Assembly: GCA_902384685.1 (NCBI GenBank) | Contig: CABMCU010000141.1 | Location: forward strand, 1-48,816 | DNA length: 48,816 nt | Origin: an uncultured archaeon | GTDB taxonomy: Archaea; Thermoplasmatota; E2; DHVEG-1 | Direction: 5' to 3' | Part shown: positions 11,235 through 12,669 of the stretch, piece by piece | Position numbering within the stretch: position 1 is the first letter of the stretch | How the letters are laid out: each line of letters begins with the position of its first letter | Notes under the pieces: generated by a model | What the model was told of the DNA's origin: nothing | Seen by the model: the letters and a program-made list of their open reading frames with translations, nothing else | Databases searched by the model: none | Position numbers and translations under genes: made by a program

Positions 11235-11444
11235 ACTTTTATTTCCTGTTATTACTAAATTGTGGAAAGGAGAGGAGGAAAGGAAGCGGAGCTGGGATGC
11301 AGACGTATCATTCTTCCTTTCACATGGTTGGAATGCGAAATACCATTTTTCGTTTATATACATACGGGGAGGAAGAATGAAAGTATTACTTTTTTAATGA
11401 AAGATTTGAACCTACTGCGAAAAGTTTAAAGCTAAGACTGCTCT

Positions 11445-11452
11445 ATATATAA
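11445..11452 (+). promoter_or_regulatory. TATA box before the SD-repeat/RHH locus
   Basis: TATATATA follows GCTC in a less AT-rich setting. Transcription would begin about 25 nt further on, near 11472-11478, inside the repeat array. TTTAAA at 11426-11431 is an alternative box that would place the start before the array. Confidence 0.45.
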
Positions 11453-11466
11453 CTGTCTAAGAAAGA

Positions 11467-11509
11467 GGAGGATTCCGAGGAGGATTCTGGGGAGGATTGA
11501 GGGAGGATT
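11467..11509 (+). repeat. Four spaced copies of GGAGGATT (Shine-Dalgarno-like array)
   Basis: GGAGGATT occurs at 11467-11474, 11479-11486, 11491-11498 and 11502-11509, with spacings of 12, 12 and 11 nt. Each copy contains a strong Shine-Dalgarno core. Only the last is correctly placed for a start codon, the ATG at 11515. A fifth copy lies inside the downstream gene at 11587-11594. Read in the frame of the mini-ORF, the array would encode RGGF-RGGF-WGGL, but no start codon is available upstream. Confidence 0.75.
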
Positions 11510-11514
11510 CAAAG

Positions 11515-11571
11515 ATGACCGTAGCTCGAGCGAGCTCACGGAAAAAAACCAAAAAGGTGACTAAAAGATGA
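11515..11571 (+). CDS. 18-residue basic mini-ORF translationally coupled to the RHH protein
   Basis: ATG at 11515 lies ~7 nt after GGAGGA, an ideal ribosome site. The product is MTVARASSRKKTKKVTKR, strongly Lys/Arg-rich. Its TGA (11569-11571) overlaps the next ATG (11568) as ATGA, so translation of the two is likely coupled. It could be a leader peptide or a small nucleic-acid-binding tail peptide. It is too short for similarity to decide. Confidence 0.5.
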   Translation: MTVARASSRKKTKKVTKR

Positions 11572-12119
11572 ACGAAAATAGCGAGGGGAGGATTGACCCA
11601 TTCAGGCTGCTGAATACTCGGAGAAAAAATCGTCAAAGAAAACCACTAAGGCCAAAAACTAAAGCGCGAGCTCTCTACGAAGAGTTAAACCCATGTATAA
11701 GCACGCGAATACCACAGAGTGTATATTTAGAGACTCTTTTAAGCGCAAAAACAGCAGGATTGAAACTAAATCAGTATGTATCAAAAGTGTTATCAAAATC
11801 CAATCTGGACATTGAGAAAATAAAAAATGATGCTCATACTGCTGGACAACAAAGCAGACAGCAAGAGATAGATAAAAGCTACAATCGTGGTGTCGAGGCA
11901 GGCAAAAATCAAAAACAAAACGATGTTATTAAGACCGCTGAAGACCACGCAATGGAAAAAATTGGATTGACATATCCCTGTTCCATATGTGGTAAGTGGA
12001 TTTACGTAGAAAAAGGCGACAAGCTACATTTGCGAATTTTGAATTTATTGTACCAAGAAAACTGGTGTCATAAATATTGCATCGACCTCCAAAGTATCAA
12101 TAATCGCCGTTACGACTAG
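11568..12119 (+). CDS. Ribbon-helix-helix / zinc-finger accessory protein
   Basis: The 183 residues have a very basic start (TRRKNRQRKPLRPKTKAR), then a ribbon-helix-helix-like segment at ~44-76 (STRIPQSVYLETLLSAKTAG, then KLNQYVSKVLSK). A helical Gln/Lys-rich linker follows, and a C-terminal zinc finger of pattern CSIC ... WCHKYC (Cys ~139/142, then Cys/His/Cys near 165-169). Similar RHH plus Cys/His proteins occur on archaeal plasmids and integrated elements, so DNA binding is likely. It starts within the ATGA of the mini-ORF. A GGAGGATT copy lies inside its first codons, which could bind ribosomes or initiate feedback. Confidence 0.7.
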   Translation: MNENSEGRIDPFRLLNTRRKNRQRKPLRPKTKARALYEELNPCISTRIPQSVYLETLLSAKTAGLKLNQYVSKVLSKSNLDIEKIKNDAHTAGQQSRQQEIDKSYNRGVEAGKNQKQNDVIKTAEDHAMEKIGLTYPCSICGKWIYVEKGDKLHLRILNLLYQENWCHKYCIDLQSINNRRYD

Positions 12120-12594
12120 CCGTGTCCAAAGTGGAAACCTGATTATTTAATATAGAATCATGGCCGCCTGTTAACGATAGACTCCTTTAATATAATGAAA
12201 GCTCACCGGAAAATGTGTAAAAACTAGCAAATGATTGTATTTCAGCATGAGAACAATTCATACAAAGGGAGAATAATAGTAAACCAAAGAAACAAATTAA
12301 GGTAATATGTAAAATATTCAAGAAGAAAACCAAAATCAATGACGATTTAATAGCATTTGATTGTCCAAACTGTATAACCAATGATGTATTTGTTTGAGTC
12401 AAAACCGTGTTAATGCTTGACTGAAAGCAAAAACATAAAAAAAGATGATTTTTTAAGGTCTCTGTAGTTCTCATTTTTAGAAAAAAGGGAGTATTGATTT
12501 TTCATTTTTTAACACCGTGATAGAAATATTAAAGAAATGTCTCAGCATGTCATTACTTTCTTATAGAACAAGCGTATTACCTCCTTTTAAAATA
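12120..12594. other. Gene-poor stretch with possible decayed zinc-ribbon remnant
   Basis: There is no convincing intact gene. On the plus strand, 12257-12397 is open and encodes a Lys-rich segment followed by LIAFDCPNCITNDVFV, which looks like the end of a zinc-ribbon protein, but it has no start codon or ribosome site. A hydrophobic 95-codon frame on the minus strand (12474-12187) overlaps it and also lacks a ribosome site. Decayed accessory DNA is the simplest reading. Confidence 0.4.
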
Positions 12595-12669
12595 GGGCCC
12601 GTAGCTTAGATCGGTTGGAGCAACCGGCTGATAACCGGTAGGTCGAGAGTTCAAATCTCTTCGGGCCCA
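12595..12669 (+). tRNA. tRNA-Ile (anticodon GAT)
   Basis: The 75 nt fold into a standard cloverleaf. The acceptor stem is GGGCCCG/CGGGCCC with discriminator A, the D stem is GCTT/GAGC, and the anticodon stem ACCGG/CCGGT encloses the loop CTGATAA. The T arm is GAGAG-TTCAAAT-CTCTT, closing with one wobble pair. The anticodon GAT reads ATC/ATT. No intron is present and CCA is not encoded. A TATA-like TTATAG near 12561 fits a start just before the gene. It marks the edge of the accessory-looking region. Confidence 0.97.

Follow-up and report, generated by a model that had tools for sequence, protein, structure and literature searches.

The window, i.e. the whole stretch of 48,816 nt of archaeal DNA analyzed here, harbors an inserted segment just upstream of a tRNA-Ile gene. 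The segment comprises a putative TATA box/promoter, an array of short direct repeats, a gene for an RHH/zinc protein, and ~430 nt without a clear gene. The features of the locus are as follows:

11385-12551, + strand: inserted segment of 1,167 bp (~1.17 kb), absent from the congeners G002, G003, G005, G006, and G007
11385-11404, + strand: left copy of an imperfect ~20-bp direct repeat, ATTACTTTTTTAATGAAAGA; the flank aligns to the empty site
11443-11452, + strand: putative archaeal TATA box CTATATATAA, as read from the sequence
11463-11511, + strand: four direct repeats, unit ~12 bp, GGAGGATT; proposed operator for the RHH protein
11515-11571, + strand: 18-codon mini-ORF, judged a chance ORF; start codon and frame are not conserved in the nearest relative (G004_C71) or in other members
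11554-11560, + strand: AAGGTGA, probable ribosome site of the RHH gene, 7 nt before its ATG; the core is kept in G004_C71
11568-12119, + strand: 183-aa RHH/zinc protein with a basic N-tail, an RHH domain (~36-80), a helical linker, and a C-terminal CxxC...H..C zinc site
11585-11596, + strand: fifth repeat copy GGGGAGGATTGA within the 5' end of the RHH gene; possible outlying operator site
12552-12571, + strand: right copy of the imperfect direct repeat, ATTACTTTCTTATAGAACAA, just upstream of the tRNA-Ile; the flank aligns to the empty site
12595-12669, + strand: tRNA-Ile (GAT), with the insertion just upstream

In the five congeners lacking the segment, a PAS gene and the tRNA-Ile flank the empty site. 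The flanks of the window match this site up to ~11404 on the left and from ~12552 on the right, and the two matches overlap on the same ~20 bp. G004 has no insertion at this position upstream of the tRNA-Ile. In G004, a separate ~3-kb insertion with recombinase-like ORFs (recognized by eye) is located on the 3' side of the same tRNA-Ile (L120:760-3800); this tRNA gene has thus been targeted from both sides.

Copies of GGAGGATT are found at 11467, 11479, 11491, 11502, and 11587, all on the + strand and with spacings of 12, 12, 11, and then 85. The 8-mer occurs seven times in the window against an expectation of 1.64 (0 of 100 shuffles reach seven) and is the sole one in the 48.8-kb window with at least three successive copies at a spacing of 10-13 bp. 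The self-match of the array at offset 12 scores 19 vs. a shuffle mean of 5.8 (0/500 shuffles), and the fifth copy equals the third over 12/12 bases. Coordinates and shuffles therefore bear out the preliminary description of four regularly spaced copies with a fifth one inside the gene. The tandem GAGGATT pattern was not found in any further intergenic region of the source genome, and pairs of TTACCATA at 12-bp spacing showed no genome-wide excess over a reversed-pattern control. Three other tandem GAGGATT sites were discarded, as they looked like the antisense of coding repeats. Archaeal promoters generally place the start site ~25 nt downstream of the TATA box, so transcription is expected to start near 11473, in repeat 1. 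The array follows directly after the putative TATA box of the RHH gene, beginning 11-15 nt downstream of it, and would hence cover the predicted start site.

The family of the encoded protein was gathered by protein similarity and profile searches alone, irrespective of any arrays. Its members share an RHH region, a linker often rich in GYxxG, and a CxxC...H..C zinc site. Invariant in the alignment are Y, P, and R of the strand region Y...P..[ST].R and the three cysteines of the C-terminal site, whose H is mostly conserved. The window protein itself has no match in Pfam. Its designation as an RHH/zinc-finger protein in the preliminary description nevertheless agrees with the family evidence, the RHH part through matches of family members and the zinc part through the conserved columns. 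These matches are to NikA-like (4e-9) and RHH_1 (2e-5) profiles in Pfam and to a RelB antitoxin profile in NCBIfam (1e-6), while matches in the PDB are weak and comprise CopG, ORF56, and DinJ over the same residues as the RHH region (family profile vs. the RHH region of CopG/ORF56: E 0.12-0.94). The RHH signature (beta strand-helix-helix) is displayed by the family and is assigned to the window protein only through the alignment; the structure model of the latter, a monomer, is weak (pLDDT 63, pTM 0.24), with helices at 50-62 and 67-77 and no confident beta ribbon. As a guess, the zinc domain and the linker might serve oligomerization. Type II antitoxins of the RelB/ParD kind are co-transcribed with an adjacent toxin gene, but no toxin gene lies beside the window copy, the next downstream gene being the tRNA-Ile.

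No name for this family was found in Pfam, NCBIfam, PHROGs, or PADLOC. By protein profile, relatives occur in 9/45 genomes of the GTDB family and in 21/390 of the phylum, with a scattered distribution across Candidatus Thermoplasmatota. The named records stem from one MAG series of this phylum, plus one Archaeoglobus hit, and no relative was found in the viral contigs searched.

Upstream regions of 200 nt were tested for arrays in 32 members, chosen by protein only. Averaged over these regions, the self-match reaches 9.28 at offset 12, 6.50 at 11, and 5.91 at 24, compared to 4.18 +/- 0.42 elsewhere, whereas the profile of control upstream regions is flat. The combined p vs. dinucleotide shuffles amounts to 2e-23, a value that overstates independence, as some members are related and some have no array. 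A score of 10 was passed by 18/32 family regions vs. 5/67 control regions (Fisher 2.5e-7). One of the five high-scoring controls, kept in the count, is itself a 12-bp array, AGTAATTACAC AGTAATTACTC GGTAATTACC (L048 ~680-715), which lies ~0.4 kb from the family gene of G057 and not directly upstream of it. About a third of the members show no significant array within the 200 nt, and the array position relative to the TATA box differs among members.

The units themselves are diverse, even among paralogs in one genome: GGAGGATT in the window, GTATACTGTAGC/GTATACTGTATA/GATTACTGTATA at G000_C121, and CCGTATCGGCGA at G000_C140. Arrays read by eye are GATTACCATACA GTTTACCATACC GTTTACTACAAG (G004_C65), two copies each of GACCRCGCAAAT and GATTACTGTACA (G034_1754), GTTCACCCTACC GATCACCCTATC (G012_C99), TATCGTAAACGA (G146), and GGGTAGAACCCC GGGGTAATCCCTC (G257). 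The repeat segments picked automatically for G014_337 and the Archaeoglobus hit are A-rich stretches and thus poor evidence. Similarity of the RHH domains correlates weakly with similarity of the arrays (Mantel rho 0.20, p 0.025, n=22). Across the phylum, the 12-bp spacing, whose conservation in related genomes the preliminary description had named as a check, often persists, but the unit sequence changes, and in the nearest relative also the strand.

The array had initially been described as either a translation-control device or a binding array through which the RHH protein represses its own gene. According to the former reading, several Shine-Dalgarno sites serve the translation of a basic leader peptide, which is coupled to that of the RHH gene. 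The 18-codon ORF described there is indeed present, its TGA stop overlapping the start codon of the 183-aa ORF; moreover, the GGAGG at 11502 lies at a suitable distance from the ATG at 11515, and with a start site near 11473 the mRNA would include copies 2-4. The closest relative, encoded by the congener G004 on contig 71 (G004_C71; ~37-41% protein identity), argues against it. Its array, AGTCCTCCCTT AGTCATCCCTC AATCATCCTCGC ATCATCC with a period of 11-12, is placed as in the window, between a TATA-like stretch and the gene, but the repeats differ in sequence and lie on the opposite strand, and the mRNA would therefore carry CCTCC instead of GGAGG, i.e. no Shine-Dalgarno sites. The array is followed by a conserved leader rich in A, in which AAGGTG(A) precedes the start codon of the gene; the mini-ORF has no ATG there, and its frame is shifted because the A-rich stretch differs in length. 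The fifth GGAGGATT copy is not present in G004_C71 either. Because the array is inverted and the mini-ORF missing in this relative, the translation reading is rejected. In other members, the repeats are likewise unrelated and devoid of Shine-Dalgarno character, and the mini-ORF is not conserved; AAGGTGA provides the RHH gene with a probable ribosome site of its own, and RNA folding is unremarkable (z -1.1, which also disfavors a hairpin or attenuator in the leader). On this comparative evidence, the window repeats are almost certainly no Shine-Dalgarno array, and translation control by them is extremely improbable.

Two further explanations act at the DNA level. The repeats could be a recombination or mobility site, on which the RHH protein assembles to serve an integrative element as an accessory factor of the excisionase-like or relaxosome-like kind. 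This is rather unlikely, since the array is situated at the promoter of the RHH gene and not at the insertion ends, and a recombinase is neither encoded by the window insertion nor recognized in the neighborhoods read of G000_C121, G012_C99, and G034_1754. Tyrosine recombinases are encoded near other members (G000_C23, G014_337, G012_C395, G259, and G004_C38; a weak match near G146 and, by eye, a recombinase-like ORF near G057), one of the Pfam matches is the mobilization protein NikA, and the window copy itself is an insertion beside a tRNA gene; such a role and autorepression are not mutually exclusive. Alternatively, the repeats could be a centromere-like partition site or the site of a nucleoprotein filament for element maintenance, with the RHH protein on iterons as for omega, ParG, and ParR. 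In favor of this are the private iteron arrays that precede the RHH genes, and ParR-parC pairs of Clostridium plasmids are family-specific as well (PMC9426499). The window copy is chromosomal, however, and no partition ATPase was recognized beside any member read (ParA, ParM, or TubZ, searched by eye near 15 members, with profile comparison for selected neighbors), which makes a partition role very unlikely.

Judged from its sequence, the locus is probably a self-contained mobile autorepressor with a private operator array. Binding would be cooperative, with one dimer of the RHH protein for each helical turn of 11-12 bp, on the four (perhaps five) repeats that directly follow the TATA box and extend over the predicted start site. 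Occupation of the array would block transcription initiation of the RHH gene, and this negative autoregulation would set the protein level. Comparison strongly supports the earlier suggestion of an RHH array repressing its own gene: relatives collected by protein similarity alone often have an array of their own, with a period of 11-12 bp, right in front of the gene. Presumably, each family protein recognizes the operator of its own gene and ignores those of paralogs; the different units within one genome suggest such orthogonality. RHH dimers are pseudo-symmetric, and omega of pSM19035 binds direct and inverted repeats alike (PMC5016525); this would account for an array that may face either way.

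The preliminary description knew no named system of this form, which is only partly right, as RHH autorepressors acting on tandem repeats are known (F55 and omega). RHH dimers bind multiple operators cooperatively (PMC5569661). Among archaeal precedents, F55 of Sulfolobus spindle-shaped virus 1 (SSV1) comes closest: it is an archaeal RHH protein from a mobile element that binds tandem repeats (consensus ATAGATAGAGT) overlapping the start site and BRE of its target genes, its own gene included, which it represses (PMC5569661). A zinc domain is not described for F55 in this review, whereas the window protein has a predicted zinc site; furthermore, F55 controls several viral promoters, while the window array of four to five copies is private, with no other target found. 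Omega similarly acts on iteron arrays overlapping promoters, its own included (PMC5016525), but its units are 7-bp heptads, according to the title of a reference cited therein, compared to 11-12 bp here, and it works with a partition system, none of which was seen at the locus. The plasmid repressors CopG and ORF56 share the RHH region (a weak family-profile match), but are chains of 45-55 residues without linker or zinc site. ParMRC of Clostridium perfringens plasmids resembles the locus in its family-specific pairs of a DNA-binding protein and an upstream repeat site (PMC9426499), but needs ParM and segregates plasmids; no such partner was seen here.

With the 12-base spacing often kept and the sequence changed, the family may represent a natural set of matched repressor-operator pairs. 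A more far-reaching and speculative idea, which we regard as doubtful at present, is that mobile elements in Thermoplasmatota carry a diversifying set of mutually orthogonal pairs, in which each protein recognizes only its private 11-12 bp array, the sequence, strand, and number of the repeats change along with the RHH domain, and the outcome is element-specific self-limitation or superinfection immunity. Since the likely binding sites accompany the proteins, about twenty protein-operator pairs are readable from sequence, which would make a code between RHH strand and DNA directly testable. The family would also be a source of candidate orthogonal regulators for archaea, and its members would flag a class of integrative elements in a phylum that is largely uncultured.

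Some neighborhoods share additional features. The members on G000_C121 and G012_C99 (L087:6415-7787 and L090:1401-3039) are neighbors of a gene for a TPR plus Mrr-like nuclease, which in one of these two genera lies downstream on the same strand and in the other is divergent from the family member; in these cases, the RHH/zinc protein is possibly a regulator of a restriction-type defense gene. Just upstream of several members, a conserved protein of ~80 aa (IELPA...IGILNxDxxFFVRE) is encoded (L082:7182-7445, L083:6526-6756, and L092:3824-4051); the two tested had no PHROGs match. Within the window, a TTAAAACCGTGTTAATGCTTG(T/A)CCGAT-like motif is located at 12395-12424 (+). The source genome has 15 copies and most congeners have several, compared to 0 for a reversed-pattern control; the motif often precedes a TATATAAA box by some 15 nt and looks like a genus-specific promoter-upstream element.
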